From a virus, in IMG/VR virus record IMGVR_UViG_3300044971_003230, positions 1 through 41,810 of that record: a stretch of 41,810 bases of DNA; one strand, given 5' to 3'. Positions within the stretch are counted from its first letter, which is position 1; the number at the start of each line of letters is the position of its first letter. A program made the translations under genes and the position numbers. The notes beneath the pieces are model-generated. The model did not search any database. It was not told the DNA's origin and was given only the letters and a program-made list of their open reading frames with translations. Shown piece by piece: positions 9,209 through 29,392 of the stretch.

Positions 9209-9210
9209 CT

Positions 9211-9238
9211 GACCCGGCTCCCGAAATGGAGTCGGGTC
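9211..9238 (+). terminator. Strong hairpin after the capsid gene
   Basis: GACCCGGCTCC and GGAGTCGGGTC pair over 11 bp (one G-U) around loop CGAAAT, followed by AATTCTTT. It is terminator-like for the capsid transcript. Because it starts at the predicted start site of the promoter just upstream, it may instead cap the 5' end of the tail mRNA. Confidence 0.5.
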
Positions 9239-9261
9239 AATTCTTTCCAGCACGCACCACC

Positions 9262-16048: not shown

Positions 16049-16058
16049 GAGCCTCAAA

Positions 16059-16079
16059 GGTTCGACCACACGTCCATCC
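16059..16079 (+). promoter_or_regulatory. Recurrent palindromic control site, copy 6
   Basis: GGTT-CGAC-CACAC-GTCC-ATCC, between the terminator and the terminase small subunit candidate, 7 nt before its ATG. The right arm is degraded, while the CGACCACACGTC core is identical to copy 1. Confidence 0.5.
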
Positions 16080-16086
16080 GATCGCC

Positions 16087-16794
16087 ATGCCACGCCCCAA
16101 ACGCAAACCCGCTCCAGTGGTCGCTCCACCCACCAGGGATGTCGTGGGCAGGCGCCCAAAGCCCAAAAAACGCCTGACCGCTCAGGACAAACTCGACCTA
16201 ATGGAAGCCTTCGCCAGGCTGCTCTTCACCGGCCAGCACACCGATGCCGATGCCTGGCGGATGGTCTACGAGGCCGGCATCCAGCGAAAAAAAGCCAGCG
16301 CGACCGTGGCCAAAGCGAGCGCCAACGCACGGAAACGACACCCGCACGTGCAGGCAGAGCTCAAACGGCTGCAGGAACTGCACGCGGCCCAGCAGGCCAA
16401 AGAGGAGGAGGAGCGCAAAAAAGCGGCTGCGATCGCCGAGGCGGCCGCGATCGCCACCCGCGACGAAGTGTTGAAATTCCACTCCAGGGTCATGCGCTGC
16501 CCGAGCAATGCCCTGACCGCAGAGCACGCCGATCTGGTCCTGGTCGTCGAAACCAAACGACTGGCACCACCCAAATACGACAAAGAAGGCAACGAAATCC
16601 CGCACCCGGACGCCGACGCTGACGGCTACGTCACGGATGTGACCCGCAGGCCCCCGGACATCAAGGAGCGGCAGAAGTCCGCCGAAAGCCTAGCTGCCAT
16701 GCAGGGCTGGAACAAAGGCGATCCAAACCTGAAAAACGCCGCCGACGCCCTGACCGAACTGCTCATGGACATTCGCGGCGGCGGCAAAAGCTGA
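16087..16794 (+). CDS. Terminase small subunit candidate
   Basis: 235 residues. A basic Pro-rich N-terminus precedes a helical domain (LTAQDKLDLMEAFARLLFTGQHTDADAWRMVYEAG), then a long coiled coil (HVQAELKRLQELHAAQQAKEEEE). The C-terminal part has TRDEVLKFHSRVM ... PDIKERQKSAESLAAMQGW, which closely resembles the common end of Terminase_2-type small subunits ('treevl ... rlkAlelLgkh.G'). Small terminases bind pac/cos DNA as rings and feed the large subunit. Here it is ~17 kb away from the large subunit gene, which is unusual, so confirmation is needed before using it as a map anchor. Confidence 0.55.
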   Translation: MPRPKRKPAPVVAPPTRDVVGRRPKPKKRLTAQDKLDLMEAFARLLFTGQHTDADAWRMVYEAGIQRKKASATVAKASANARKRHPHVQAELKRLQELHAAQQAKEEEERKKAAAIAEAAAIATRDEVLKFHSRVMRCPSNALTAEHADLVLVVETKRLAPPKYDKEGNEIPHPDADADGYVTDVTRRPPDIKERQKSAESLAAMQGWNKGDPNLKNAADALTELLMDIRGGGKS

Positions 16795-16803
16795 TCCAAC
16801 ATC

Positions 16804-17085
16804 ATGCAGACCTGGCTTACCATTCCGATTAACAAGCACTGGCTGATTTTACCAATCCAGGAGCAATCGCCAACCACGGTTGCGGATTTTGTCGCCTGCC
16901 TGCTCGCCTTGTTTCTGCTGGCATGCATGTGGATCCTCACAGGTGGACATCGTCTGATCCACATCGCAAAACACCGCCATTGGGGCCGGATCGCCCTGAG
17001 CATCATACTCATCGTCGGGATGATCGATTGCCTGCGCATCCTGCACAACACGGCCTCCTACCTCTCCAAAATCGCCAAACACTAA
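16804..17085 (+). CDS. Two-helix inner membrane protein
   Basis: 93 residues. Two hydrophobic stretches (~residues 26-46, VADFVACLLALFLLACMWIL; ~64-80, ALSIILIVGMIDCLRI) are separated by a basic loop (HRLIHIAKHRHWGR), predicting a hairpin with a basic cytoplasmic loop. Small two-helix phage proteins include holins and superinfection-exclusion factors. Its position between the small terminase and glycosyltransferase genes, rather than next to the endolysin, makes exclusion or modification accessory functions as likely as lysis. Confidence 0.5.
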   Translation: MQTWLTIPINKHWLILPIQEQSPTTVADFVACLLALFLLACMWILTGGHRLIHIAKHRHWGRIALSIILIVGMIDCLRILHNTASYLSKIAKH

Positions 17086-17096
17086 GTCTCCCTCAA

Positions 17097-18284
17097 ATGC
17101 ACCTTTTCACGCCATGCCGCGACCTCTTCGACGGCCAACTGCGCGCCGGCACCACCTACCTCATGGACACGCAGATGGCTGACCAACTGTCGGCCCTTGG
17201 ACATTGCGCACACTCCAGTCCATTCACCAACCAGCAGCCAGGCATCAATGCCAAACCCGACAACACCACGCGCTCAATCCTGATCCTGCGCGCCGGAGGC
17301 TACGGAGACATGCTGTTCCTCACCCCGTGTCTGGCCGAACTGCGCCGGCGCTTCCCGTCCCTCGAGATCACCGTTGCCACGGGCAGCACGCGTGATGCGC
17401 TACACCATCCAGCCTTACAGGACATTCAGGTCATCGATTACCCGGTTCCTCTGCCGCTGACCAAATGGGACATCATCAGCAGCGCGGAACGCATCGCGTC
17501 GGAGGACATGACCTACGACGCCAGCGCTTATTTTGCGAACCACCTGGGCCTTATCAGCCAGGAACAACTCGAGAGCACCGGGTTGATCACACGGCAAACC
17601 GAGGCCCCCAAAATACCGTTTGATTTGCGGCCGCTGTACCACGTCAGCGACGAGGACCGGTACAATGCTTGGAAGGCGTTCCCTCGGCATGAAGGCCGCG
17701 CCAGGATCGGCATCCAGACGGAGAGTTCCGTAAAAAACCGCACCTATCCCGTCGACCTTACCGGCCTACTGATCCACGACCTCATCGAAAAGGACGGCTG
17801 TGACGTCTACACATTCGGTTACCCAGACCCGAAGAATGTCGAACTGCCGCACTTCTACCCTCTCCAATGTCTGCCGGAGCCGCCCAGCTTCCAGCAATCA
17901 GCGGCGGTGCTCTCGACCATGGACGCCATGATCGCCCCGGACTCCAGCCTATGCCATATCGCCGGTGCCCTGGAAATCCCCACCATCGCTCTTTACGGCC
18001 CGTTCCACTGGCGACAGCGAGTCGGCAACATGCCGACGGTCAAAGCTCTCCAGGGGCACGCACGCTGCGCGCCCTGTCAGTGGCATTGGAAACACGGGCT
18101 GCACTACCCACCGCACATGTCCTGCGCCGACCTGGTCGGCCCGCCAGGGCAGCAACGGCAGCGCGGTTGCTCCGCCCTCGCCCAGATCACTCCCGAGCGA
18201 ATCCGGTCCACCCTTTGGTCCTGGCTCAGCGAATGCACCCGCAAAACCGAAGTGTTTTCCCCCCATGTGGCACACGTTGAATAA
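17097..18284 (+). CDS. Family 9 glycosyltransferase (ADP-heptosyltransferase-like)
   Basis: 395 residues. Residues 60-90 (SILILRAGGYGDMLFLTPCLAELRRRFP) are the N-terminal Rossmann loop of GT9 heptosyltransferases. Around residues 278-304, MIAPDSSLCHIAGALEIPTIALYGPF is the C-terminal nucleotide-sugar-binding signature (D-S-x-x-H-x-A-x-x-x-x-P-x-x-x-L-x-G). The N-terminal ~58 residues are extra, and several Cys/His cluster near the C-terminus (ARCAPCQWHWKH, and CADL). GT9 enzymes add heptose-like sugars to lipopolysaccharide or other glycans. In a temperate phage this suggests surface-glycan change (receptor masking) or virion glycosylation. It overlaps the next gene by 20 nt. Confidence 0.75.
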   Translation: MHLFTPCRDLFDGQLRAGTTYLMDTQMADQLSALGHCAHSSPFTNQQPGINAKPDNTTRSILILRAGGYGDMLFLTPCLAELRRRFPSLEITVATGSTRDALHHPALQDIQVIDYPVPLPLTKWDIISSAERIASEDMTYDASAYFANHLGLISQEQLESTGLITRQTEAPKIPFDLRPLYHVSDEDRYNAWKAFPRHEGRARIGIQTESSVKNRTYPVDLTGLLIHDLIEKDGCDVYTFGYPDPKNVELPHFYPLQCLPEPPSFQQSAAVLSTMDAMIAPDSSLCHIAGALEIPTIALYGPFHWRQRVGNMPTVKALQGHARCAPCQWHWKHGLHYPPHMSCADLVGPPGQQRQRGCSALAQITPERIRSTLWSWLSECTRKTEVFSPHVAHVE

Positions 18285-18867
18285 CTCCGCCGCCGGCACC
18301 CAGGCAATCATCATCGGCAAAGGGCCCAGCCTCGACGCATGGATCCAAGCCGGAATGCCCAAAAAAGAAGGATCCGTGATGATCGGAATTAACCACGCGG
18401 CATTCATTGGCCCATGCGATTACGGAATCACGACGCACGGCGACGCCCCTGAGTACGCAGATATCCCGACGCGGTGGATCATCGGCCTACCCCTTGCGGG
18501 AGATCCGCGTGACGCCCGTCGGTGGCATCGTGCGCCCTGGGTGCATTCCTGGTTCGTCCACACACACGCGCAAAACGACCACGTCCTCCAACAAACCCGC
18601 GACGAGATCGCCGAAAGCCGCATGCTCTGGGGACGAAACAACAGCGGCAACAACGCGGTCCACTTTGCTTGGTACCTGGGCGCCACCAGCCTCATGTTCG
18701 TAGGCTGCGACGGCACACCGGAATACGCACAGGCCTGCAAAAATATGCCAGGCATCCGACCGCTCCAATCCGCCGCAGCCTACCACTACCCAAACTACCG
18801 CCTGGCAAACGACCAAATCGCAAGCGTCCTGTTCGACACCCGCTGGTCCCACTGGGGCAGCCCATAA
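18265..18867 (+). CDS. MptE/DUF115-like Rossmann protein, glycan partner of the GT9 gene
   Basis: 200 residues. IIIGKGPSLDAW near the N-terminus, then VMIGINHAAF ... YGITTHGD, and SGNNAVHFAWYLGATSLMFVGCDG form the G-x-G-P-S/L ... N ... D pattern of MptE-like/DUF115 Rossmann proteins. These often accompany glycosyltransferases (Maf-type flagellin glycosylation, O-antigen synthesis). A substrate cannot be inferred. It overlaps the GT9 gene by 20 nt, so the two are co-translated and probably act on one glycan. Confidence 0.6.
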   Translation: MWHTLNNSAAGTQAIIIGKGPSLDAWIQAGMPKKEGSVMIGINHAAFIGPCDYGITTHGDAPEYADIPTRWIIGLPLAGDPRDARRWHRAPWVHSWFVHTHAQNDHVLQQTRDEIAESRMLWGRNNSGNNAVHFAWYLGATSLMFVGCDGTPEYAQACKNMPGIRPLQSAAAYHYPNYRLANDQIASVLFDTRWSHWGSP

Positions 18868-18881
18868 GGTCAATCCAGGTA

Positions 18882-18966
18882 AACAATCAGAGCCGTGAAA
18901 TGAGCGGAATTGATTGTTGCGAGCAGAAATCAAACGTGCTTGTGTGCGGCGTCGGTAGCAGCCGAC
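18882..18966 (+). other. Intergenic hairpins before the 18991 gene
   Basis: Two stems: AACAATCA (18882-18889) with TGATTGTT (18911-18918) across a 21-nt loop, and GTCGG-TAGCAG-CCGAC (18951-18966). The second shares the ten bases GGTAGCAGCC with the hairpin at 19264-19289, on the other side of the small gene between them. Confidence 0.4.
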
Positions 18967-18990
18967 ACAACATCCAAACTCAATCCGCAC

Positions 18991-19254
18991 ATGAAAATCA
19001 CGATCAACCACAACGGGTTCCACGGTCACACATCCGCAGTTCTCAACGTCCCCGGCAAGCCTGGAGATAAGGTCATTCTTACCCCACACCAAATCCGCAA
19101 ACTGCGCGTCATTCCATGCGGCTGCGACAGCTGCTCCTGTGGGGAATCCATGCTAAGGGCGTTGTCGGATTACGGACAACGCTTTGATCCGTGCAAACTC
19201 ACCATTCCGGCGAGTGGAGAAATCAACATTCGCGGCAACTATCCCCAGCAATAG
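18991..19254 (+). CDS. Small Cys-rich protein
   Basis: 87 residues, not recognised. The centre reads IPCGCDSCSCGES with four Cys in eight residues plus one later, a compact metal-site or disulfide candidate; the rest is beta-like (VILTPHQIRKLRV, KLTIPASGEINIRG). The ATG at 18991 is chosen. The same frame is open further upstream to a TTG at 18910, but that stretch is inside the hairpins and has poor coding character. Confidence 0.45.
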   Translation: MKITINHNGFHGHTSAVLNVPGKPGDKVILTPHQIRKLRVIPCGCDSCSCGESMLRALSDYGQRFDPCKLTIPASGEINIRGNYPQQ

Positions 19255-19263
19255 CAACAAAAA

Positions 19264-19289
19264 GCCCCGGAGGTAGCAGCCTCCGGGGC
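19264..19289 (-). terminator. Terminator for the leftward repressor transcript
   Basis: GCCCCGGAGG-TAGCAG-CCTCCGGGGC: perfect 10-bp stem. On the - strand it is followed by TTTTTGTTG, a proper U-tract; on the + strand it is followed by AAAACCC, so it terminates leftward transcription best. It would end the repressor mRNA after crossing the 19328 gene. Confidence 0.65.
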
Positions 19290-19327
19290 AAAACCCATTT
19301 CTGAGTTCAATTCGTTTCAATCCGCGC

Positions 19328-19597
19328 ATGAACAAGCCCACGCGACCGACCAACACAGCAGCAAAAAAGGCAGTTGTCACCGAAAAAAAACGAGGTGGGC
19401 GAAGGCCTCGCGCAGGCCGCCCAACAGTTGGCCGCACTTGCCAGCCACCCAGGATCAAACCTGAAGCCATGGCAATATTCCGTGAAATCGCGGAATTCCG
19501 CAGATGCTCGGTCGCGGCCGCCATTGAACTCGCCGCTACTATCGCCATCGACGCCATCGAAGGGCGCCCGATACGCCAGGACCTGCTGCGCTATTGA
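19328..19597 (+). CDS. Small basic DNA-binding-like protein convergent with the repressor
   Basis: 89 residues. The first ~40 residues are basic and disordered (KKRGGRRPRAGRPTVG). The second half (PEAMAIFREIAEFRRCSVAAAIELAATIAIDAIEG) resembles a ribbon-helix-helix or short helix-turn-helix domain. It overlaps the 3' end of the repressor gene by 7 nt, tail to tail. The repressor transcript, if it runs to the terminator at 19264, is fully antisense to it. Confidence 0.5.
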   Translation: MNKPTRPTNTAAKKAVVTEKKRGGRRPRAGRPTVGRTCQPPRIKPEAMAIFREIAEFRRCSVAAAIELAATIAIDAIEGRPIRQDLLRY

Positions 19598-19989
19598 ATC
19601 AAGCGCAGGCTTTCCTGCAGCCAGTCACGCACGTCAGGCCGTGATTCGGCGAGGTGCCTCAGCGCAGCAAACAAAGCATCCATGCTGAGATCGGACGACC
19701 CGGCCACCATCGGATCAACCCCTACCTGCTCTCGTAACTCAATGATGAGATCACCGCGCGCGGACGACGGACACTCATCGAGCAGATGAGCAAGGATCAG
19801 AGGACCACGCTCAGTAGATGCAAGAGCGTTGGACAGCGCAGCAAGCGCCTCAACCGAGGGCCGCGAGCGCCCTGATGCGTAATGACCAAGAGTAGCCCGC
19901 TGAATCCCGCACAGTTTGGCCAATCCCTGCATGGTATGCGACTCCGCAACCCTGCGCAGCGCAGTCTGAAACATGGTGATTTTACTCAT
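19591..19989 (-). CDS. XRE-family phage repressor (CI/C2-like)
   Basis: 132 residues, the only convincing leftward gene. A helix-turn-helix at ~residues 20-55 (QGLAKLCGIQRATLGHYASGRSRPSVEALAALSNAL) is standard XRE, with the recognition helix around IQRATLGHYASG. The C-terminal ~75 residues are helical and acidic, with no LexA/CI-type Ser-Lys autoprotease pair, so inactivation would need an antirepressor or other signal. It faces the rightward early genes across 82 nt with mirrored operators. Its ATG lies about 7 nt after a predicted -10 box, so its mRNA may be nearly leaderless, as lambda cI from PRM is. Confidence 0.8.
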   Translation of the reverse strand: MSKITMFQTALRRVAESHTMQGLAKLCGIQRATLGHYASGRSRPSVEALAALSNALASTERGPLILAHLLDECPSSARGDLIIELREQVGVDPMVAGSSDLSMDALFAALRHLAESRPDVRDWLQESLRLIQ

Positions 19990-20065
19990 GCTCCATTATG
20001 TAGCATGAAACAAAAAAAACAAAAACTATTTGGCTGCATAATTGGAGCGTGCTACATTTTGGAGC
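19990..20065. promoter_or_regulatory. Divergent promoter region with mirrored operators (immunity switch)
   Basis: GCTCCATTATGTAGCATG (19990-20007) and, inverted, CGTGCTACATTTTGGAGC (20048-20065) agree at ~14 of 18 positions. The rightward promoter is TTGGCT (20030-20035), 17 nt, TACATT (20053-20058). The leftward promoter on the - strand is TTTTTG (20025-20020), 17 nt, TACATA (20002-19997). Each -10 box lies inside an operator, so the bound repressor could block both. A poly-A stretch (20008-20025) lies between. Confidence 0.7.
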
Positions 20066-20071
20066 CTCACC

Positions 20072-20251
20072 ATGCCACCCACCACCCCTCCACAGGAAAA
20101 AATCGCCGCAGCCCTCGCTGCATTTTTCCGGTCACTCAGCGCGAGCCACGACCGCGAACTTGCCGGAATCGCCATCTCACTTGAACCCAAGGTCCTCGAC
20201 CTCGTCCGGAAAAGTGAGCGCAACCCGCGCGCCAGCAGCCGCGCCAGCTGA
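20072..20251 (+). CDS. First rightward early gene, small protein
   Basis: 59 residues, not recognised: helical, ending in a basic Ser/Arg-rich tail. The ATG is 13 nt after the predicted rightward -10, so the leader is only ~7 nt. The position is that of cro in lambda-like switches, but no helix-turn-helix is convincing. Confidence 0.5.
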   Translation: MPPTTPPQEKIAAALAAFFRSLSASHDRELAGIAISLEPKVLDLVRKSERNPRASSRAS

Positions 20252-20279
20252 CACACCAACAAATGGCACACCTCCCCCG

Positions 20280-20513
20280 ATGAATCTGCCACAAACCCAA
20301 GCACTACCGGCAACCGTCCACAGCCTTGCGCAGGTCACTCAGCAGGCCAGGACCAGGACCGGCAAACAAATCGCCACGCGGATCCAGGCAGGAACCGTGC
20401 AGGTCGGTCTGCCGAAACCAATCGGCACAAGGGGCGCCATCCACTTTGAGCCGCTCAGCCAATGGATGAGCATCGAGAAGGCCATTCAATACCTCAACAA
20501 TTATGCAGGCTGA
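20280..20513 (+). CDS. Small early protein
   Basis: 77 residues. Mid-region TRTGKQIATRIQAGTVQVGLPKP followed by IHFEPLSQWMSIEKAIQYLNNY. No family recognised. The ATG at 20280 is preferred because upstream codons overlap the 20072 gene in another frame. The last 11 nt overlap the next gene. Confidence 0.45.
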   Translation: MNLPQTQALPATVHSLAQVTQQARTRTGKQIATRIQAGTVQVGLPKPIGTRGAIHFEPLSQWMSIEKAIQYLNNYAG

Positions 20514-20694
20514 CAACCACACCATCGACGCCATCGCCCGCGCTGCCTACTCGTTCGGCCGTGCCAAAGAACGTGCTTTGACCTACCGCGCCTACCGCAC
20601 AAAAAGCAGCATCAATATGGCTCGCCACTGGGGCGCAGAAGCCCGCGCGGAATGGCAACGCCTGCAAGAACTCCGCAGCAACATCACCCACTGA
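20503..20694 (+). CDS. Small early protein
   Basis: 63 residues, basic and helical (DAIARAAYSFGRAKERALTYRAYR; AEWQRLQELRSN). No family recognised. It overlaps the preceding gene by 11 nt and is followed 4 nt later by the 20699 gene. Confidence 0.45.
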   Translation: MQADNHTIDAIARAAYSFGRAKERALTYRAYRTKSSINMARHWGAEARAEWQRLQELRSNITH

Positions 20695-20698
20695 TCCC

Positions 20699-21124
20699 AT
20701 GACACCAAAAGCACTTCTCCACACCAGCGCAGATCAAAACCGGATCGCGCCCGAGCAGCACGCACACAACATCCTCCTGCTCCTGCTCGATCGCCTGCCC
20801 ATCACCACCATGAGCGACATCGTGGCCCACATGATCGCCACCGATGAGGACGGCGACAGCGAAGCCGCCAGCGATTTGGTTCACGCGACCGGCAAGCAGC
20901 GCTGGGGCACGAATGAATGGGAGGCTGCGATGCAGCTTGCCCGGCACCGCTACGACCCCGAGTACACTCCTGACGCTTACACCCTCGGCTACAACCAGGG
21001 CCAGCATGCCGCACGAAGCGCAGGGGGAAGCCGTGGGGCAGAGTGGCATGCCGACCAACAGCAACTGGAAGGCGTGAAGCGAGCCGATTACATCCAAGGC
21101 TACAACGACGGACAATCCGAATGA
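20699..21124 (+). CDS. Early protein, unrecognised
   Basis: 141 residues. The N-terminal half is helical (EQHAHNILLLLLDRLPITTMSDIVAHMI). The C-terminal half has repeated Tyr/Gly-Gln units (YTLGYNQGQH and YIQGYNDGQSE), a short duplicated motif. It overlaps the next gene by ATGA. Function unknown. Confidence 0.5.
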   Translation: MTPKALLHTSADQNRIAPEQHAHNILLLLLDRLPITTMSDIVAHMIATDEDGDSEAASDLVHATGKQRWGTNEWEAAMQLARHRYDPEYTPDAYTLGYNQGQHAARSAGGSRGAEWHADQQQLEGVKRADYIQGYNDGQSE

Positions 21125-21420
21125 TGCCGCCCACCGTCCAACAGCTGGCTCGTGAGTTCGCGCGACACTTGCGCGCCGCCATCCTGTCAAAACATACCTG
21201 GACGCACATTGAGGCCGCAAACCGCGGCAGGTACACCCAGGACGGACAGGATGCAGTGCATGAACACGTCGACCCATGGGCTGTCATGCACGACGCCTGG
21301 ACCCACACCGGCGCACCACCCATGCGGATCGACGACCACACGCAGACAGCGACGATCGAAGCCGCCATGAGATTGTCCAAGGCGCATAACCACAACCCCG
21401 ATCAGATACCGCTGCAGTAG
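21121..21420 (+). CDS. Early protein, unrecognised
   Basis: 99 residues starting at the ATGATG overlap. Rich in His, Trp and Thr (HTWTHIEAANRGRYTQ; HDAWTHTG), with a helical N-terminus. No metal site or catalytic pattern is clear. Confidence 0.45.
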   Translation: MMPPTVQQLAREFARHLRAAILSKHTWTHIEAANRGRYTQDGQDAVHEHVDPWAVMHDAWTHTGAPPMRIDDHTQTATIEAAMRLSKAHNHNPDQIPLQ

Positions 21421-21442
21421 TTCGATTTCACACCAAACCCTC

Positions 21443-21676
21443 ATGAAACCGACACACGCAACCTGGCTGCTGCTCAACCTCCTGCACTGGATCGGCCACG
21501 CTGTCTACGCCGCCAGGACGCAGACGCAGGCCCGGCACCGTCGCCAGGACCTACTCGAAGAATGGTGGCGCGATCGCAAGCTCGCCAACAGCCGACACGC
21601 TCGAGCCGCCGCCCGCGAATACCTGCGGATCCGCCGCAGGGAAACCACTCCCACAGACATCATTATCGACCCATGA
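21443..21676 (+). CDS. Small basic membrane-associated protein
   Basis: 77 residues. The N-terminus (WLLLNLLHWIGHAVYAA) is hydrophobic enough for a membrane or interface helix; the remainder is strongly basic and helical (RHRRQDLLEEWWRDRKLANSRHARAAAREYL). It overlaps the next gene by ATGA. Unknown function. Confidence 0.45.
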   Translation: MKPTHATWLLLNLLHWIGHAVYAARTQTQARHRRQDLLEEWWRDRKLANSRHARAAAREYLRIRRRETTPTDIIIDP

Positions 21677-21843
21677 AACTCCGGCACAAACCCGTCCGCA
21701 TGCTCGACCTCACACGCAGCATGCCCAATCTGCACGCAAGCCTGACGCCCGAGCCACCGCCACCGATCTGGCTGGAAATCGCCCAGGGGATTGCACTCGC
21801 CGTGCTCGCCCTGGTCGGCATCTACATCGTCTTCGGCCTGTAA
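21673..21843 (+). CDS. Tail-anchored small membrane protein
   Basis: 56 residues: basic N-terminus, Pro-rich centre (TPEPPPPIW), then one C-terminal membrane segment (~residues 36-55, LEIAQGIALAVLALVGIYIV). It would be a tail-anchored inner-membrane protein. It is short enough to be missed by routine gene calling. Confidence 0.45.
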   Translation: MKLRHKPVRMLDLTRSMPNLHASLTPEPPPPIWLEIAQGIALAVLALVGIYIVFGL

Positions 21844-21848
21844 CATTT

Positions 21849-22040
21849 ATGCCCAACTACCTGATCATCCCCGCCCGCAGGGGCATCAAGCCGGAGAAGG
21901 CCAAAAACTGGCAGGAAGCGCTCGAACGGGCGACCGCCATGTCCATCCGGCACACCGGCGTCGAGGTGCAGCTGTACGAACTGCATACGAAGTTCCGGTA
22001 CACCCCACCAGAAACCCAACCCCAAACGGACGCCCGGTGA
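21849..22040 (+). CDS. Small early protein
   Basis: 63 residues, a mixed alpha/beta start (MPNYLIIPARRGIKPEKAKNW) and a beta-like segment (VEVQLYELHTKFRYTPP). Not recognised. Its stop overlaps the GTG start of the next gene. Confidence 0.4.
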   Translation: MPNYLIIPARRGIKPEKAKNWQEALERATAMSIRHTGVEVQLYELHTKFRYTPPETQPQTDAR

Positions 22041-22318
22041 ACTACAGCAACTTCATCGCCCGGGTGCAGGCCTGCAAGACAAGTCGCACCGCTTATCCGC
22101 CGGCGCTCATGGAGGCTGTCGAGACGCTGCATTTCGAACACGGCATCCCAGCCAAAACCATCGCGCAGCAGCTGCAGGCAGAACCTGAATACCAGGACAA
22201 AAGCTTGGACAGCCTGCACGCCGCCATCTGCCGACACATACGCCGTGCCACCCTCCGCCGTGGGCACACCCCACGCCGCAAACCCAAGACCCCAAAAAAG
22301 GCATGTACATCACCCTGA
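22037..22318 (+). CDS. Small basic helix-turn-helix-like protein (GTG start)
   Basis: 93 residues from a GTG that overlaps the previous stop as GTGA; no suitable ATG is available in the frame. The middle (HGIPAKTIAQQLQAEPEYQDKSLDSLHAAICRHIRR) looks like a helix-turn-helix and the C-terminus is basic (RRKPKTPKK). DNA binding is plausible. It overlaps the next gene by 16 nt. Confidence 0.4.
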   Translation: MNYSNFIARVQACKTSRTAYPPALMEAVETLHFEHGIPAKTIAQQLQAEPEYQDKSLDSLHAAICRHIRRATLRRGHTPRRKPKTPKKACTSP

Positions 22319-22629
22319 TCCTGCTGGCGTCCGCCTTGGCGATCACCGAAACCATTCACCTGTATCACAAAATGCGCTCCAGGGCGCAGGTCACAAAGCT
22401 GCCTGAAAATGGCAGCGATGACTTCGATGACATCATCGACGGTCCCGCCATGCATGTCACGCTTTACGGCGGACCACTCGACGGCCGCGATATCCTGGTT
22501 GGCAAGGACACCATCGGCTACGGCGACGACCAAACCGGTTCCCTTTACTACTTCTGCCCGGAAGTAACAGCCAGGCTTGGACGCTACGCATTCGCCCACC
22601 AGACCCACCCCATTTCCGCCCTGTCATAA
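22303..22629 (+). CDS. Membrane-anchored protein with GGPLDGR motif
   Basis: 108 residues. An N-terminal membrane helix (~1-20, MYITLILLASALAITETIHL) is followed by an acidic linker and a small beta domain opening with VTLYGGPLDGRDILV. This GGPLDG pattern recurs in many small phage and actinobacterial proteins of unknown role. The domain would sit on one side of the inner membrane. It ends the early small-gene series. Confidence 0.5.
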   Translation: MYITLILLASALAITETIHLYHKMRSRAQVTKLPENGSDDFDDIIDGPAMHVTLYGGPLDGRDILVGKDTIGYGDDQTGSLYYFCPEVTARLGRYAFAHQTHPISALS

Positions 22630-22634
22630 CGGCA

Positions 22635-22655
22635 GGTCGACCACACAGCAAACCC
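22635..22655 (+). promoter_or_regulatory. Recurrent palindromic control site, copy 7
   Basis: GGT-CGAC-CACAC-AGCA-AACCC, 9 nt before the ATG of the 22665 gene. The left core CGACCACAC is shared with copies 1 and 6. Confidence 0.5.
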
Positions 22656-22664
22656 AACTGACCC

Positions 22665-23129
22665 ATGAGCAAACCCAAGACCGCCGAATTCCAGGAGGCA
22701 CAGGTCATCCACCTGCCGACCGCCAACACCATCAATCTACCCTATCCGGAACCTGGATACCATTACGTCCAGGTCCCGAAGGACATCACCCAGAGCACGA
22801 TCCGGCAGCCCATCGTCGCCAGCCTGTGCCGCATTTCCAACGGCGATCTGCTCGCAGGCATGGACGAGGACCTGAGCGAGCTCATCAAGAGCGTCCAGAC
22901 GCTCGGCGAGAAGGGGCACATCACCCTGAAACTGACCGTGGCACCCGGCGGCATGAAGAAGGTCAAGATCGACCCGACGCTCACGAAGAAGATCCCGACC
23001 GAGAAGGCCGAGTCCTCAATCCTCTACGCCAGCAGCGAAGGACAACTGCTCCTGCGCGACCCCGACCAGCCCGAACTTGACCTGCGCATCATCGAGGACG
23101 CCGCGCCGGCCCCACGCCGCGTCATCTAA
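22665..23129 (+). CDS. Recombination-module protein upstream of the DUF2303 gene
   Basis: 154 residues. An N-terminal extended part leads into LISNG-like helices (VASLCRISNGDLLAGMDEDLSELIKSVQTLGEKG) and a compact beta domain (HITLKLTVAPGGMKKVKIDPTLTKKIP ... ASSEGQLLLRDPDQPELDLR). Proteins of this shape are commonly encoded directly before DUF2303 proteins in phages, as here. The function is unknown but is tied to the recombination/replication block. Confidence 0.55.
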   Translation: MSKPKTAEFQEAQVIHLPTANTINLPYPEPGYHYVQVPKDITQSTIRQPIVASLCRISNGDLLAGMDEDLSELIKSVQTLGEKGHITLKLTVAPGGMKKVKIDPTLTKKIPTEKAESSILYASSEGQLLLRDPDQPELDLRIIEDAAPAPRRVI

Positions 23130-23173
23130 CCAATCCCTTCATCAGAGAAACACCACACACCCACATCCCACCC

Positions 23174-24031
23174 ATGGATCCCACCACACCCAACATCGCC
23201 ACCACCATCGCCGAGCTGGCCAGACAGGCCAGCGCGACCAAATCGCTGGGCAGCGACATCGTCGCACTCCCGACCGCCAAGGGCGATTTTCAACTTCACA
23301 ACCTGGAAATCTATCAGCCCCACCCAACTGACATCCGCCAGATCGTCAAAATCGCCACGCTCGCCGACCACGTCGACTACGTGATCCGACAGCGCGCTGC
23401 GGGATCCAACACGGTGCTGTTTGCCAACCGCAAAGCGCTCAAGTTCACGACCATAATGGCCTACCATGGCGCAGAACTCGGCGAATGGTTGCGGCACCGC
23501 GTCCACACGGCCCTCGAGCGCAGCCAGCAGCTGACCACCTGGCTCACCGTTGCCGGCCAGTGGATGACCCAGGAAGCATTCGGCGAGTTCCTCGACATTA
23601 ACCTGAGCGACATCACAACACCCGCACCGGCCACCGTGCTCGATTTTGTCGAGCAGCTGGAGTGCTCCAGGAAGGAATACTTCCGCTCCGCAAAGAACCA
23701 GACGACCGGTGAGGTGCAGTATGCCTGGGGCAAGGAAAACGACGCGGCCGCCACCTCGCAGGCCAAAATTGTGAAGGAATTCACCCTGGGAATTCCAATC
23801 TGGCATCGCGGCGAGGCCGTCCAGGTCAAGGCCCGCCTGCAGCACAACATCAAGGAGCAGGACGGGAAAGCATCCGTCCAGTTCCGCTTCAAGGTCGAGC
23901 ACATCGACCGCATCGAGGACAAGCTCTGGGAGGAGAAGCTGACCGAACTCAAGGAGAAGCTGAAAGGCCACGCCACGATCTACGAGGGCGAGGAACCCGC
24001 CGAACCAGGCCTCGTCACCAGCAGGCTCTGA
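23174..24031 (+). CDS. DUF2303-family phage protein
   Basis: 285 residues. Motifs typical of DUF2303 are seen in order: an N-terminal helix and short beta segment, ATLADHVDYVIRQRA with NTVLFANR, a central FTTIMAYHGA, then QWMTQEAFGEFLDIN, and a C-terminal basic beta region (FTLGIPIWHRGEAVQVKARLQ). The length matches the family. DUF2303 genes are regularly found among phage recombination and replication genes, with no established biochemical role. It is followed 6 nt later by a highly structured non-coding element. Confidence 0.75.
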   Translation: MDPTTPNIATTIAELARQASATKSLGSDIVALPTAKGDFQLHNLEIYQPHPTDIRQIVKIATLADHVDYVIRQRAAGSNTVLFANRKALKFTTIMAYHGAELGEWLRHRVHTALERSQQLTTWLTVAGQWMTQEAFGEFLDINLSDITTPAPATVLDFVEQLECSRKEYFRSAKNQTTGEVQYAWGKENDAAATSQAKIVKEFTLGIPIWHRGEAVQVKARLQHNIKEQDGKASVQFRFKVEHIDRIEDKLWEEKLTELKEKLKGHATIYEGEEPAEPGLVTSRL

Positions 24032-24037
24032 AAATCT

Positions 24038-24132
24038 GCAGGCGGCCGGTGGAGTTCAAAGCCTGGTCAATCCCCCAGGCCTCCGGCTGGCAAAATTCGT
24101 CGCCAACAACGAACCAGCAACCGGCCGCCTGC
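24038..24132 (+). ncRNA. Candidate structured RNA: three-way junction with twin bulged arms
   Basis: A 13-bp perfect outer helix (24038-24050 with 24120-24132) encloses two arms. Arm A: GGAG 24051-24054 with CTCC 24081-24084, 6-nt 5' bulge TTCAAA, GCCTGG 24061-24066 with CCAGGC 24075-24080, 8-nt loop. Arm B: GCTGG 24086-24090 with CCAGC 24114-24118, 5-nt 5' bulge CAAAA, TTCGT 24096-24100 with ACGAA 24109-24113, 8-nt loop. Junction linkers are 0, 1 and 1 nt. In all, 33 bp leave only 29 of 95 nt unpaired. No U-tract follows and it does not fit a tRNA. Folding was done by eye, without energy calculation. The fold is also possible for the - strand. Confidence 0.5.
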
Positions 24133-24146
24133 GCTTTCATCTGATA

Positions 24147-24169
24147 GGGTTTGACAACACGTCAAACCC
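24147..24169 (+). promoter_or_regulatory. Recurrent palindromic control site, copy 8 (perfect arms)
   Basis: GGGTTTGAC-AACAC-GTCAAACCC, 9-bp perfect arms, 31 nt before the replication initiator ATG. TTGACA is contained in it, but the best -10 downstream is only TTAAGA at 18-nt spacing, a weak match. Confidence 0.6.
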
Positions 24170-24200
24170 GCCCGTTAAGACACCACCACCTCCCCCACCG

Positions 24201-25067
24201 ATGGCAACCGAACCCTGGATCAAAGTCCGAGAGAGCATCTTCTCCGACCCCAAGATCCTCAGCATGGCCAAGGCTCTGGCCAGCAACCCGAAAGTCGCAG
24301 GCTACATATTTCGTGACGGCGCGCGTGACATGCTGGGCGTCACACCAACCGTCACGCGTGACGTTATGCGTGACGTCACCGTGACGGGCCTGATACGCGT
24401 ATGGATCGCTGGCAACCGTCACACTGGTGACGGGACCTTCCGTCACGCCGACGTCACACACATCGACGACATCGCCGGAATTCCAGGTTTCGGCGAAGCG
24501 ATGATCAAGGTCGGTTACGCCAGCTACGACCAGGACAACGATGCGATCGTCCTACCTAACTTCCACGAACACAACACATCAGCGCGGAAAACGGCCAGCG
24601 CAAACGAGCGGACGCGCCGCTGGAGAGAGCGTCAAAAACAGCGTCACATGTCACGTCACGGTGACGTCACGGTGACGCATAACGAAACCGTCACAGACGA
24701 GGCAGATAAGACTAGACTAGATAGTACAACAACAACAACGACAACGCGCGATGTGCGCGACAGGGGCTGCAGCCTCGAGGAGGCACTGGCCCACGCTGAG
24801 GCTCACAACAAAATCCCCACCGACGGACTGACGATCACGCCGGAGATCGTCCGAGCATGGCACGACGCCAGGACCGCACAGGGCTGGTGCACCATCCGCG
24901 ACGGCGCGGAGATTCCGATCCGCGACTGGCAGGCCGACCTGCGCAGCTACACGCGCAAATGGGTCAACCGCGAGCGCGCCACGGGCATCGCGCCGGCCCC
25001 AGGATCACGCAGGCCAGCACCCACGCAGCCCGTCAAGACCACCACGGACCCCAAAAACGGCTTCTAA
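24201..25067 (+). CDS. Replication initiator (lambda O / DnaD-like)
   Basis: 288 residues. The N-terminal ~135 residues (WIKVRESIFSDPKILSMAKAL ... TRDVMRDVTVTGLIRVW ... AIVLPNFHEHN) have the 'IxxDPKI ... W/IxG ... GxG' layout of phage replication-initiator winged helices. A basic patch (NERTRRWRERQKQRH) and a Thr-rich linker follow. The C-terminal ~95 residues (EEALAHAEAHNKIP ... ITPEIVRAWHDARTAQGW ... DWQADLRSYTRKWVNRER) match a DnaD-like helicase-contact domain. The DnaC-like loader follows by 3 nt. Its coding sequence contains the origin-like repeat array, as the lambda O gene contains ori. Confidence 0.7.
   Translation: MATEPWIKVRESIFSDPKILSMAKALASNPKVAGYIFRDGARDMLGVTPTVTRDVMRDVTVTGLIRVWIAGNRHTGDGTFRHADVTHIDDIAGIPGFGEAMIKVGYASYDQDNDAIVLPNFHEHNTSARKTASANERTRRWRERQKQRHMSRHGDVTVTHNETVTDEADKTRLDSTTTTTTTRDVRDRGCSLEEALAHAEAHNKIPTDGLTITPEIVRAWHDARTAQGWCTIRDGAEIPIRDWQADLRSYTRKWVNRERATGIAPAPGSRRPAPTQPVKTTTDPKNGF
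24313..24745 (+). repeat. Iteron-like array, candidate origin of replication inside the initiator gene
   Basis: GTGAC or its complement GTCAC occurs 12 times between 24313 and 24457, and 7 times between 24643 and 24694. The second cluster includes GTCACGGTGAC repeated in tandem every 11 bp (24655-24665 and 24666-24676). An AT-richer stretch (24695-24745, with AGACTAG repeats and an AAC microsatellite) follows, as expected for a melting region. Confidence 0.55.
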
Positions 25068-25070
25068 CCC

Positions 25071-25784
25071 ATGAGCACCGCCATCTGCCCACCCGCCAAA
25101 CGCTGCCGCCAATGCAGCACGGAAATGGATCCGGAAAGCATCTGGACCATCTGCCCTGACTGCTTGGACGCCGCCCAGGCCACCGCCGCGGCTCACGCCG
25201 ACCAGGTCGCCAAACAGGAGCGACAGGCTGCCAAGCGAAACGACTGGCAGCGCATCGTGCCGCTGGACTACCGAAAAACCGACTGGACCCACCCCGGGCT
25301 GCATCCAGTCTGCCAGAAGCTCGCCAAGGACTGGAACCCAGCGTGGAACACCGAGGAACGCGGCCTGGGCATCGTCGGCCCGACTGGAGTTGGAAAAACA
25401 CGCGCCGCCTACGCCATCCTGACCCGGCTGCACTTCGCCGGAATCCCATGCGCCGCCATCGACGCCGTCGACTTTGCCAATGCGGCATCGAGCCAGCACG
25501 ATGACGACCGATCCGCCAGAAACGCAGCCAGGCACCTTCTCGACAAGGCCAAGACCATCAAGGTGCTGCTGCTCGACGACATCGGCAAAGAACCCGCCAC
25601 CCCCAGGACCGTCTCCGCCCTGCACGACCTGCTGGAGAAACGGAACCAAAACCGCCTGCCACTGATCTGGACATCCGAGCGGATCGGCGCCGAGCTCGCG
25701 CAGATGTTCGGACACAACTACGCCGACGGCATCCTCCGGCGCCTGCGAGGCAACCACCAGATCCACGTCATCGAGAAGCACTGA
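25071..25784 (+). CDS. DnaC/IstB-like helicase loader ATPase
   Basis: 237 residues. An N-terminal zinc-finger-like motif has Cys12-X2-Cys15 and Cys28-X2-Cys31. The AAA+ core has Walker A GPTGVGKT (103-110), Walker B VLLLDDIGKE (165-174), a sensor-like IWTSER (199-204) and an arginine pair at 223-224. Length and order match DnaC-type loaders that place the replicative helicase at an initiator-bound origin. No phage helicase gene is seen, so the host DnaB is the likely client. The ATG is 3 nt after the initiator stop. Confidence 0.8.
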   Translation: MSTAICPPAKRCRQCSTEMDPESIWTICPDCLDAAQATAAAHADQVAKQERQAAKRNDWQRIVPLDYRKTDWTHPGLHPVCQKLAKDWNPAWNTEERGLGIVGPTGVGKTRAAYAILTRLHFAGIPCAAIDAVDFANAASSQHDDDRSARNAARHLLDKAKTIKVLLLDDIGKEPATPRTVSALHDLLEKRNQNRLPLIWTSERIGAELAQMFGHNYADGILRRLRGNHQIHVIEKH

Positions 25785-25809
25785 CCTCATCACCCCAAAC
25801 CCACCCCAC

Positions 25810-26196
25810 ATGAACGACACCAACACACAGACCCCGCCCCTCAGCCCCGAACTCGCCGCGCCGGCGCCGAGCAGCAAATCCGCCAACCGCCTGACCATTC
25901 CGCAGACCCTTAAGCTCGGCGACTGGATTCAGCGCAACCTGGAGAAAACCAAGGAGCACTCCGACGCGCTCTGCGCCAATATCGCCGGTCTCGAACTGCA
26001 GTTCCACATCACCGGCGCAAACTTCGCCACCTGCCGCGTCGCCCTCGGCATCGATAAAAACGAGCCGCCAAAACCACCGACGCTCGAAGAGCAGGTCCAG
26101 GAACTGCGCGAGAAGCTCACCGCCCTGACCGACCGCGTCAACGCATGGCTGGATGGCAGCCAAGTCGAAACCACCGACACAGCCCCAGGCGCATAA
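25810..26196 (+). CDS. Small replication-module protein
   Basis: 128 residues. A Pro/Ser-rich N-terminus precedes a helical domain with Cys residues (IQRNLEKTKEHSDALCANIAG) and a C-terminal coiled coil (LEEQVQELREKLTALTDRVNAWL). No family recognised. It sits between the helicase loader and small accessory genes. Confidence 0.5.
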   Translation: MNDTNTQTPPLSPELAAPAPSSKSANRLTIPQTLKLGDWIQRNLEKTKEHSDALCANIAGLELQFHITGANFATCRVALGIDKNEPPKPPTLEEQVQELREKLTALTDRVNAWLDGSQVETTDTAPGA

Positions 26197-26207
26197 TCTC
26201 CGGGTTT

Positions 26208-26426
26208 ATGTACCACCTGATCACCTACAAGGACTTCCACGGCCGCGTCCACAAGCGCAGCTTGGCCATGAGAAGCTGCCAAGCGCAGACCCGTGTCAAG
26301 GAGCGCGCCGACTGCGCAGCGATCGTGCAGATCGAGCGCATCACCGAAGCCGAGCACGCAAGAAACGTCGCCAAACAGCGCGACATCAAACGATTCATCC
26401 GCAACAACAAAAGCAGCAACCCATGA
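26208..26426 (+). CDS. Small basic protein
   Basis: 72 residues, basic and helical, with a beta start (MYHLITYKDFHGRVHKR). The ATG at 26208 is preferred over an ATG inside the preceding gene. The stop overlaps the next gene as ATGA. Not recognised. Confidence 0.45.
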   Translation: MYHLITYKDFHGRVHKRSLAMRSCQAQTRVKERADCAAIVQIERITEAEHARNVAKQRDIKRFIRNNKSSNP

Positions 26427-27142
26427 GCGAACCCACCACAATCCCCGCCGGAACACAGATCTACCCTTACTCCACGCCTGACGGCATCATTCAACTTGTG
26501 CCTCTCAAAGCGCTGGCGGCTGCCACTGTTAAAAGTGACACACTAGAACACGAGGTCAACCACCTGCGCCAGGCGGTCGCCGAGTTGAACGACAGGCTCA
26601 TCGAGCGCACTCAGGATATGCTGGCGAAGCAGACCGAGCTGATCCAGGAAGCACGGCAGGCAAAGCGAGACGCTCGTGATGCCATCGCCCAGGCCGTCCG
26701 GCGCATGGAGGCCGTGTCGGCAAATGAAATGTGGAAAACATTTCGTCGAACTAATTCGCTGAAAGCAGTTCGCGCCCACCTTATCGCCGCCTTCAAGGGC
26801 GAGGGGCAGGCCCAGGAGGTGCCGCAGGGCGAGGCAAAGGCCGAGCCCGCCACCAAAGAAGCGCCAGTTACTTTCCAGGCCCACGGCAAGATCTGGACCC
26901 GGCACACGCCCGGCGATCCGAGGCCGTGCGATGGGCATAAAGTAATTGAGTGGCTTCTTCCAAGCGAACTGAATGGGAAAGAGCCATTTCAGCCAATGCC
27001 TGACACAGCAAGTAATCCGCATACCTGGCGAGTTGCTATCGGCTGGCGCGAGGCCGACGAGCCAGCCCAAGAGGTGCCGCAGCCGAGCCTGCCGGAACGC
27101 AACCCGTCAATAATGATGCAGGATGGAAGCACTCATGAATAA
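26423..27142 (+). CDS. Coiled-coil protein, unrecognised
   Basis: 239 residues. Residues ~35-100 form a long coiled coil (EVNHLRQAVAELNDRL ... QEARQAKRDARDAIAQAVRRMEA). A linker with repeated EVPQGEA/EVPQPS units follows, and a C-terminal ~90-residue part contains WTRHTPGDPRPCDGHKVIEWLL and HTWRVAIGWREADEPA. The last part reads like the small 'PCDG..v...l' domains seen after DNA-metabolism proteins in phages. The 3' end overlaps the exonuclease gene by 20 nt if that gene starts at 27123. Confidence 0.5.
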   Translation: MSEPTTIPAGTQIYPYSTPDGIIQLVPLKALAAATVKSDTLEHEVNHLRQAVAELNDRLIERTQDMLAKQTELIQEARQAKRDARDAIAQAVRRMEAVSANEMWKTFRRTNSLKAVRAHLIAAFKGEGQAQEVPQGEAKAEPATKEAPVTFQAHGKIWTRHTPGDPRPCDGHKVIEWLLPSELNGKEPFQPMPDTASNPHTWRVAIGWREADEPAQEVPQPSLPERNPSIMMQDGSTHE

Positions 27143-27671
27143 GGAAGCACGACCGAGCAACATCATGCTCGACTTGGAAACTCTCGGCACCAACCCAGGA
27201 TGCGCCATCCTGTCCATTGGCGCGGTCCTGTTTAGCGGCCGCCGCCTGCATGACGAGTTTTACATCCGGATCAGCCTGAAAAGCTCACAAGATTACGGGC
27301 TGACCATCGACGCCGACACGCTGCAATGGTGGACCCAGCAGCCACATGACGTTTTCGCCGAAGCGATGGCAGGAGAATACTCGCTGGACGCCGCAATGTT
27401 TAAATTCAGGCAATGGCTTGAAAACCTGCACCTGCCTCCGAACTGGACCATCTGGAGTAACGGAGCATCCTTCGATGCGCCGGTGCTCGAAGCAGCGTTC
27501 CGGAAGCTACGTATGCAGCCGCCCTGGACACACTCGCAGGAACGCTGTTACCGCACTTTGCGCGCCCTGGATCCAGGCGAACCCAAGATCGAGCCGGCCA
27601 TCAAGCATCATGCGCTCGAGGACGCAAAGGCCCAGGCGCTACACGCTATGAGGATCGCCCCATGGCTGTAA
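27123..27671 (+). CDS. DEDD 3'-5' exonuclease (Rv2179c/RNase T-like)
   Basis: 182 residues. The first exonuclease motif is IMLDLETLGTNPG (Asp17, Glu19). A central WSNGASFDAPVL supplies the second Asp, and HHALEDAKAQA gives the final His-x4-Asp. The arrangement and size match the Rv2179c-like/ExoVIII-type family. It may degrade DNA or RNA 3' ends in the recombination block. The start is uncertain: ATG 27135 is also possible and would avoid most of the overlap. Confidence 0.8.
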   Translation: MEALMNKEARPSNIMLDLETLGTNPGCAILSIGAVLFSGRRLHDEFYIRISLKSSQDYGLTIDADTLQWWTQQPHDVFAEAMAGEYSLDAAMFKFRQWLENLHLPPNWTIWSNGASFDAPVLEAAFRKLRMQPPWTHSQERCYRTLRALDPGEPKIEPAIKHHALEDAKAQALHAMRIAPWL

Positions 27672-27672
27672 C

Positions 27673-27693
27673 GGTTTGACTACACAGCCAACC
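27673..27693 (+). promoter_or_regulatory. Recurrent palindromic control site, copy 9
   Basis: GGTTTGAC-TACAC-AGCCAACC, beginning 1 nt after the exonuclease stop and ending 4 nt before the methyltransferase ATG. A -10 at standard distance would fall inside the gene, so it cannot act as an ordinary -35 box here. Confidence 0.5.
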
Positions 27694-27697
27694 ATCA

Positions 27698-29392
27698 ATG
27701 AAATACCTCTCCATCTGTTCAGGCATCGAAGCCGCGACGGTCGCATGGCATCCGCTTGGATGGCGACCGCTTGGCTTCTCCGAGACCGAACCCTTTCCGT
27801 CTGCCGTGCTCGCCCATCACTGGCCAGACGTCCCAAACCTGGGCGACATGACCCGCTGGCGAGACTGGCCGGAAGAACTCCTGCGCGAGGTGGACATCCT
27901 GGTTGGCGGCACGCCCTGCCAGGCATTCTCCATCGCCGGTCTGCGCGAGTCACTCGACGACGAGCGCGGCAACCTCACCCTCATCCTTGTCCATCTTTAT
28001 GACCACATCACCGCAATCCGCCACGCTGCTGGACGACCTGCCCCTCTTCTCCTCTGGGAAAACGTGCCTGGAGTCCTCAACACCAAGGACAACGCCTTCG
28101 GGTGCTTTCTGGGGGGGCTGGCCGGAGAAGATGGCCCGCTGCGACCTCCAGGGAAAAGATGGACGGACGCTGGTTATGTGCGCGGACCCAGCAGAGCAAT
28201 CGCGTGGCGGATCCTCGACGCCCAACATTTCGGCCTGGCCCAACGACGCCAGCGCGTGTTCGCTCTGGCAAGTCCTGGAGACGGGCCCAGTCCCGAGCAG
28301 GTTCTATTTGAGTTCGACGGCCTGCGCCGGGATTCTCCGCCGCGCCGAGAGGAGGGGGAAGGATTTACCCACTCCCTTGCGCCTTGCCTTACAAGCGGTG
28401 GCCGCGGCACAGAGCGCACAGGAGACACGCGAGGCCAAGATCCAGTGGTCGCTGAAATACGCGCCTACGGAGGCAACAACACCTCCGGCGCCATAGATGC
28501 CGCGCCTGCGCTCAATGCTAACCGAGGATGCCACAACCCCGGAGACTTCGAGGCTGGCACGCTGCTGGTCGATGTCACGCACACCCTGCGAGGTGAGGGC
28601 CACGATGCCAGCGAGGACGGCACAGGCAGAGGTACGCCAATCATACCAACGCTCTGCCCAACGCTGCGCGCGGGCGGGAACAAGACCGGCGGCGATAGGC
28701 CGCCAGGAACAGACGTGGACACCTGCGAGAGCTTGATCCCCGAGGTGCTGCCCTTCGATCGCGCCCAGATCACCAGCCAGCCACATGTCGCCATCGCCTT
28801 CCCGGAATTCCTTTCCGGCACTCAGTGCGCGGCCGCCGAGAACCTGAGCCCGACGCTGCAAAGCGTCAATCCGACAGCCGTGGCGTTCAATCTGCGAGGC
28901 CGCGAAGGCGGCGCGATGCCGGAAGCGGACCCCGACAACCTCGCATGTCAGCTGGCGGCGTCGGGAGGCTCAAGCCGCAGCTATGTCGCCTTCTCAGCCA
29001 GAGCCCGAGGCGACGACGGCAGAGGCTACGACCGCCCACCCCAGGTGTTCGGCGATGTCGTTGGCAGCCTCGACACAATGAAGCCCCACCATGTTGCGCA
29101 GGGTTACGCCGTCCGTCGACTGACGCCCACCGAGTGCGAGCGCCTCCAGGGGTTTCCGGATGACTACACGCGCATCCCAACGTGGAATGGCTGGCGGGCC
29201 ATGGCAGACGATGAGTCGCCAGAGCAATGCCGCGAACAAGGCCTCGAAGTCCGGCAAAACAAAAAGACCGGCAAATGGCGGGTCAAAGACGTCGATGGCC
29301 CCCGCTACAAGGCGCTCGGCAACTCCATGGCCGTCCCCGTCATGCGCTGGATCGGCGGGCGCATCGCCACTCACCTCAACCCGAAAAACTGA
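27698..29392 (+). CDS. dcm: DNA (cytosine-5)-methyltransferase, Dcm type
   Basis: 564 residues. Motif I is SICSGIEAATVAW (5-17), motif IV GGTPCQAFS (catalytic Cys74), motif VI ENVPG (121-125) and motif VIII QRRQRVF (182-188). A long target-recognition region (~210-480) with repeated ALNANRG/HTLRGEGHDASEDGTGRGTP-type units precedes motif IX RRLTPTECERLQGFPDD and motif X KALGNSMAVPVMRWI. The order is canonical and the recognition region is large, as in many phage Dcm enzymes. It would methylate phage DNA and so help evade restriction. No partner endonuclease gene is adjacent. Confidence 0.9.
   Translation: MKYLSICSGIEAATVAWHPLGWRPLGFSETEPFPSAVLAHHWPDVPNLGDMTRWRDWPEELLREVDILVGGTPCQAFSIAGLRESLDDERGNLTLILVHLYDHITAIRHAAGRPAPLLLWENVPGVLNTKDNAFGCFLGGLAGEDGPLRPPGKRWTDAGYVRGPSRAIAWRILDAQHFGLAQRRQRVFALASPGDGPSPEQVLFEFDGLRRDSPPRREEGEGFTHSLAPCLTSGGRGTERTGDTRGQDPVVAEIRAYGGNNTSGAIDAAPALNANRGCHNPGDFEAGTLLVDVTHTLRGEGHDASEDGTGRGTPIIPTLCPTLRAGGNKTGGDRPPGTDVDTCESLIPEVLPFDRAQITSQPHVAIAFPEFLSGTQCAAAENLSPTLQSVNPTAVAFNLRGREGGAMPEADPDNLACQLAASGGSSRSYVAFSARARGDDGRGYDRPPQVFGDVVGSLDTMKPHHVAQGYAVRRLTPTECERLQGFPDDYTRIPTWNGWRAMADDESPEQCREQGLEVRQNKKTGKWRVKDVDGPRYKALGNSMAVPVMRWIGGRIATHLNPKN

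Follow-up and report, generated by a model that had tools for sequence, protein, structure and literature searches.

An over-stable three-way-junction fold between the DUF2303 and replication initiator genes of an uncultured phage

Which function is served by a 95-nt segment that folds into a three-way junction between two genes of an uncultured phage, and does it act as RNA or as DNA? This question is raised by an intergenic region of an IMG/VR virus record of 41,810 bases, which was analysed over its whole length and is referred to here as the window. The gene upstream of the junction (23174-24031, plus strand) encodes a member of the DUF2303 (YfdQ) family (Pfam PF10065, E 7.6e-36; phrog_210, E 2.1e-44). 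Downstream, on the same strand, follow a gene for a phage replication initiation protein (24201-25067; phrog_2509, E 1.4e-29), whose N-terminus resembles those of the phiPSA1 and epsilon15 initiators, and a gene for a DnaC-like helicase loader (25071-25784; phrog_50, E 4.4e-28). Within the initiator gene, CGTGACG/CGTCACG repeats are clustered at 24312-24675 and probably represent the iterons of a lambda-like origin: eight of the 15 copies of CGTGACG in the window fall within the 550 bases from 24201 to 24750, where 0.2 are expected by length. Between the junction and the initiator gene sits the palindromic element GGGTTTGACAACACGTCAAACCC (24147-24169), one copy of an intergenic repeat and a probable operator or stoperator.

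The first-pass annotation had placed the junction at 24038-24132, directly after the DUF2303 gene, and this position was confirmed: the stop codon ends at 24031 and the helix starts 6 nt further on. The minimum-free-energy fold of the plus strand (-53.6 kcal/mol) reproduced the annotated architecture. An outer helix, formed by a perfect 13-bp inverted repeat (GCAGGCGGCCGGT, 24038-24050, and ACCGGCCGCCTGC, 24120-24132), closes the junction and is joined to arm 1 by a linker of 0 nt. Arm 1 (24051-24084) consists of a 4-bp basal helix (GGAG/CTCC), a 6-nt bulge on the 5' side (TTCAAA, 24055-24060), a 6-bp apical helix (GCCTGG/CCAGGC) and the 8-nt loop TCAATCCC (24067-24074). A single nucleotide (G24085) separates it from arm 2 (24086-24118), which is composed of a 5-bp basal helix (GCTGG/CCAGC), a 5-nt 5' bulge (CAAAA, 24091-24095), a 5-bp apical helix (TTCGT/ACGAA) and the 8-nt loop CGCCAACA (24101-24108); another single nucleotide (A24119) leads back to the outer helix. 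All 33 pairs are of the Watson-Crick type with no G-U pair among them, and 66 of the 95 bases are paired (69.5%), in line with the 70% or so estimated earlier. The trinucleotide CAA occurs in all four unpaired arm segments. The fold can be extended by pairing of TGAAA (24029-24033), the first three bases of which are the DUF2303 stop codon, with TTTCA (24135-24139).

Folding of both strands and comparison with shuffled sequences, as proposed along with the first description, placed the energy of the junction outside the shuffled range, a property expected of a structured noncoding RNA. Shuffles of the plus strand gave -31.7 +/- 3.4 kcal/mol, which corresponds to a z-score of about -6.3 to -6.4 (0 of 200 shuffles as stable); the same segment of the minus strand reached -58.6 kcal/mol (z -5.64), and with the flanking TGAAA/TTTCA pairing included the z-score was -8.04. 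When both strands of the whole window were scanned with correction for composition, the two strands of the junction took ranks 1 and 2 of 5564 segments, a ranking that is flattered by the exact junction coordinates having been put into the scan. The outer helix is the only perfect 13-bp inverted repeat within 120 nt in the window, compared with 0.12 expected from dinucleotide shuffles. The 69-nt interior, and with it both arms, is over-stable as well (z -3.6; 1 of 1000 shuffles as good). A 5'-only bulge of at least 3 nt in both arms was found once in 18,000 shuffles, and never in 18,000 when sizes had to match, under a same-side-bulge criterion that was defined post hoc, with the structure already seen. 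The arms share this architecture but not their sequence, a local alignment between them being no better than that of shuffled sequences; an origin by tandem duplication was ruled out by the absence of similarity. A chance origin of the fold is very unlikely, and because the z-scores are extreme, same-side bulges are rare in shuffles and the arms are alike in architecture rather than sequence, a specific, selected structure is well supported over random GC pairing. The proposal that the segment is a specific RNA held in its first part, the z-scores and arm design speaking for a selected structure, while nothing found backs its RNA nature or any particular kind of RNA.

The assertion that no reading frame accounts for the segment proved too strong, as all three plus-strand frames are open through the junction. 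A GTG-started ORF of 31 codons (24049-24144) ends 2 nt short of the palindromic element. The frame shared with the initiator encounters no stop over the junction (24039-24138) and is coding-like in its codon use, with 10.5 bits over 31 codons in mid-element against an off-frame 99th percentile of 7.3. From these two frames the segment could be read as part of a short or decaying gene, its base pairing being a by-product. This reading is nevertheless very improbable: the best-scoring frame lacks a start codon and its coding score collapses upstream of the initiator start, the peptides of neither frame matched any PHROG, and constraint on coding does not give rise to two arms nested within a perfect 13-bp inverted repeat. 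The frame that continues DUF2303 is clearly non-coding over the element (-13.95), for which reason stop-codon readthrough was dismissed. A frameshift fusion to the initiator was likewise discarded, since the frame in question loses its coding character before the start and crosses the palindromic element.

Searches for relatives left the junction an orphan. ARAGORN and Rfam returned no match, in agreement with the earlier statement that it is not a tRNA, and no Rfam family was assigned at the gathering score or, chance matches apart, up to E 10. DNA similarity searches of phage and plasmid records gave nothing beyond chance-level matches of 26 nt, and the junction is single-copy in the window. 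The covariance-model search that had been suggested earlier, run with a single-sequence model, detected no homologue in 11 related virus records and no other junction in phage loci, related or DUF2303-bearing, that totalled 331 kb. Single-sequence searches with the DUF2303 protein, the initiator, the helicase loader and a phrog_204 neighbour in IMG/VR, and with the DUF2303 protein in GTDB genomes, yielded no relatives; aligned DUF2303 proteins proved too divergent to serve as a query. A DNA pattern of the outer helix hit 120 stretches in IMG/VR, which were set aside as GC-rich chance matches; they included a 91-nt family that is coding-like and unrelated. DUF2303 was present in none of the TerL relatives (L002-L005, L131-L139), those of their records that were examined further contained neither initiator nor junction, and the regions upstream of initiator homologues held no comparable junction. 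Being an orphan, the junction can be rated as no more than a further case of a structured element between phage genes.

Our best reading, a tentative one and in essence a guess, is that the junction acts in cis on the DUF2303 mRNA, as a 3'-end structure or an insulator. An early polycistronic mRNA would fold into the three-way junction, closed by its 13-bp helix, right after the DUF2303 stop. The junction would mark the upstream message at its 3' end and protect it there, either by blocking 3'-to-5' decay or by aiding pausing or termination of RNA polymerase, and would act as an insulator between the cistrons of DUF2303 and the replication initiator. The latter would keep its own control through the palindromic element and the unstructured leader just downstream. 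When the gap is folded as a whole, the last 31 leader bases of the initiator (24170-24200) are unpaired, so that the junction stands apart and leaves the initiator start exposed. Elsewhere in the phage the recurrent palindromic elements mostly lie 0-11 nt behind a stop codon; here 115 nt separate the stop from the palindrome and are filled by the junction. This arrangement is what a discrete added module would show.

The position of the junction, between the DUF2303 stop and the palindrome of the next gene, is where a 3'-end structure would usually be located. In other phages checked, all 11 DUF2303 gaps of at least 50 nt contained a strong stem-loop; several of these are terminator-like, and the one in BcepIL02 is annotated as a terminator on the opposite strand. 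The stem-loops or terminators at DUF2303 3' ends in Pm86, Vibrio 5P1a, BcepIL02, RcapNL and others share with the junction a strong gap structure after the stop, but most of them are plain hairpins, a U-tract being present in some, whereas the junction is branched and has none. The median z-score was -2.7 in DUF2303 gaps and -2.0 in other gaps of the phage records fetched for DUF2303 or initiator genes (p 0.03), a statistically weak link between strong gap structure and DUF2303. Post-DUF2303 stem-loops were seen in unrelated phages, among them Pm86, Vibrio 5P1a, Vibrio 34E29.1, RcapNL, Mwe-JY05, where the structure is a very long hairpin, and Caulobacter W2.

Several observations count against a 3'-end structure. 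As described earlier, a terminator U-tract is absent: the stem is GC-rich but is followed by GCGCTTTCATCTGA rather than a U-rich tract, and the site was not listed by a terminator scan, although terminator-like stem-loops occur elsewhere in the phage. One of them, a 12-bp stem with a T-rich tail, follows the major capsid gene (9210-9239). A simple hairpin would suffice for the proposed role, which leaves the elaborate two-arm design unaccounted for. A terminating ribosome would partly open a helix 6 nt past the stop, and in E. coli proximity of a stop codon represses terminators (PMC4824070). Simple intrinsic termination is not claimed, given the missing U-tract and the hindrance of the helix by the ribosome near the stop. 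Finally, DUF2303 abuts or overlaps the next gene in most actinophages examined, with Judy as an exception, and the lack of G-U pairs together with the equal stability of both strands leaves room for a role at the DNA level.

If the junction acts as RNA, its two arms might instead be two copies of one recognition design that is bound by a protein of the phage or the host (the initiator or the DUF2303 protein itself, for instance), and so control expression of the replication genes. A protein-binding RNA of this kind would fit the common architecture of two arms of unrelated sequence, so rare among the shuffles, the CAA in the unpaired segments and the position directly ahead of the initiator and helicase loader genes. 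We nevertheless consider it doubtful: the arm comparison was defined after the structure had been seen, A-rich unpaired segments make CAA likely, covariation is lacking for want of a homologue, and the unpaired initiator leader offers no obvious switch. That the arms represent a new class of autoregulatory phage RNA, coupling DUF2303 or initiator levels to replication-gene expression through two protein-binding sites of the same design, is quite improbable. Basal helix, 5' bulge, apical helix and loop also make up HBV epsilon and coat-protein operator hairpins, and each arm of the junction is alike in that respect, a mere resemblance; the junction differs in having two arms and shares with them no known sequence relation or binding protein. 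A separate trans-acting small RNA of the phage, read from the plus strand or as an OOP-like antisense RNA from the minus strand, is unlikely. The lambda OOP RNA is an antisense RNA with its own promoter and terminator, located directly upstream of the replication initiator gene. The junction recalls it by its place ahead of an initiator gene, and as the most over-stable segment of the window on both strands it is compact and self-contained. OOP has its own promoter, however, whereas a consensus scan of 22500-25500 on both strands revealed no promoter-like site of the sigma-70 type, the only type scanned and perhaps not that of the host; the missing Rfam match and the lack of conservation also weigh against a small RNA. 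A packaging RNA, suggested in the first-pass annotation alongside a nuclease-resistant 3' end, is unlikely and ranks below that other suggestion, since the terminase of the phage groups with conventional large terminases of tailed phages, which need no RNA; neither suggestion gained support here. The phi29 packaging RNA (Rfam Phage_pRNA) is a phage-encoded three-way junction of about 100 nt, and to that extent the junction resembles it. The Phage_pRNA model did not match the junction at the gathering score or up to E 10, and whereas the phi29 loops are complementary for intermolecular pairing, no complementary stretch between the two junction loops was apparent by eye.

At the DNA level, the segment could be an element of the replication module, one strand of which extrudes as a branched hairpin for primosome loading or initiator binding. 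Such a cruciform or single-strand initiation site would be well placed beside the initiator gene and its iterons, with the first iteron-like repeats 180 nt downstream and the DnaC-like loader nearby, and would agree with strands that fold equally well through Watson-Crick pairs. Still, it is rather unlikely. Origins of the lambda type, which lie within the initiator gene, function without an upstream hairpin of this kind. The regions upstream of initiator homologues (phiPSA1, epsilon15, SPN1S and others) are mostly coding and contain no such element, and branching together with asymmetric bulges would be atypical of an extruded cruciform. A DNA role is favoured by a finding from E. coli, where extra copies of the gene cluster to which yfdQ, a DUF2303 gene, belongs inhibit the initiation of replication (PMC4776307). 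A MITE- or REP-like origin, as a small palindromic element that is mobile or was inserted, with the 13-bp repeats as its termini, is extremely improbable. The junction does separate, as one unit, the stop codon from a palindrome that at its other sites comes immediately after the stop, but it is present once in the window, phage and plasmid records gave only the chance-level 26-nt matches, and no target-site duplication is seen at its borders. The junction may work as RNA or as DNA: both strands fold, none of the 33 pairs is G-U, and protein, DNA and covariance-model searches found no homologue.

If transcribed and functional, the junction would be a structured element that controls the replication module in an uncultured phage lineage, a group whose gene regulation is almost unknown. 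The structure, although an orphan, is well defined and will become testable once one relative with the same early region has been sequenced.

The palindromic element downstream of the junction belongs to a set that may be a more useful discovery than the junction itself. The element GGTTTGACNNCACGTCAAACC occupies about ten intergenic sites in the window (1756, 6172, 9177, 13523, 21418, 22633, 24147, 27672, 34080 and 35918) and about ten in a relative, G005 (L142-L144; copies at 1513, 2583, 4409, 27815, 30633, 31160, 35231, 38226 and 42897), whose terminase is 74% identical to that of the window phage. An exact-pattern scan of IMG/VR with the palindrome core matched G005 alone. Several copies share gene borders between the two phages, and copies often touch stop or start codons; the ATG of the terminase gene lies inside one. 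The right half, CACGTCAAACC, is kept in G005, while the left half varies in several copies and pairing is broken, which made an RNA stem formed by the GGGTTTGAC hairpin seem unlikely. This unequal conservation of the halves makes a DNA site bound by a protein, probably an operator or stoperator, more likely than an RNA hairpin. Stoperators of L5-type mycobacteriophages overlap start and stop codons. The palindrome resembles them, by likeness only, in this overlap, in its intergenic placement and in copy number, the L5-type repressors having stoperators at some 26 sites per genome (PMC9283540), and its copies have the look of a set of stoperators or operators beyond the actinophages.

In G005 a strong stem-loop is found at the same place after the capsid gene (near 38260), beside a palindrome copy in both phages. 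The same relative carries a single open frame of 3914 codons (16054-27798; L143 54-11798), located where the window phage has no corresponding region. At most gene starts in the window (e.g. 1431, 6220, 7680, 23174 and 24201) Shine-Dalgarno sequences are almost absent, and C/A-rich leaders such as CACCACCACTATGG or CCTCCCCCACCGATGG precede the start codons; together these features suggest that the host initiates translation without Shine-Dalgarno pairing.
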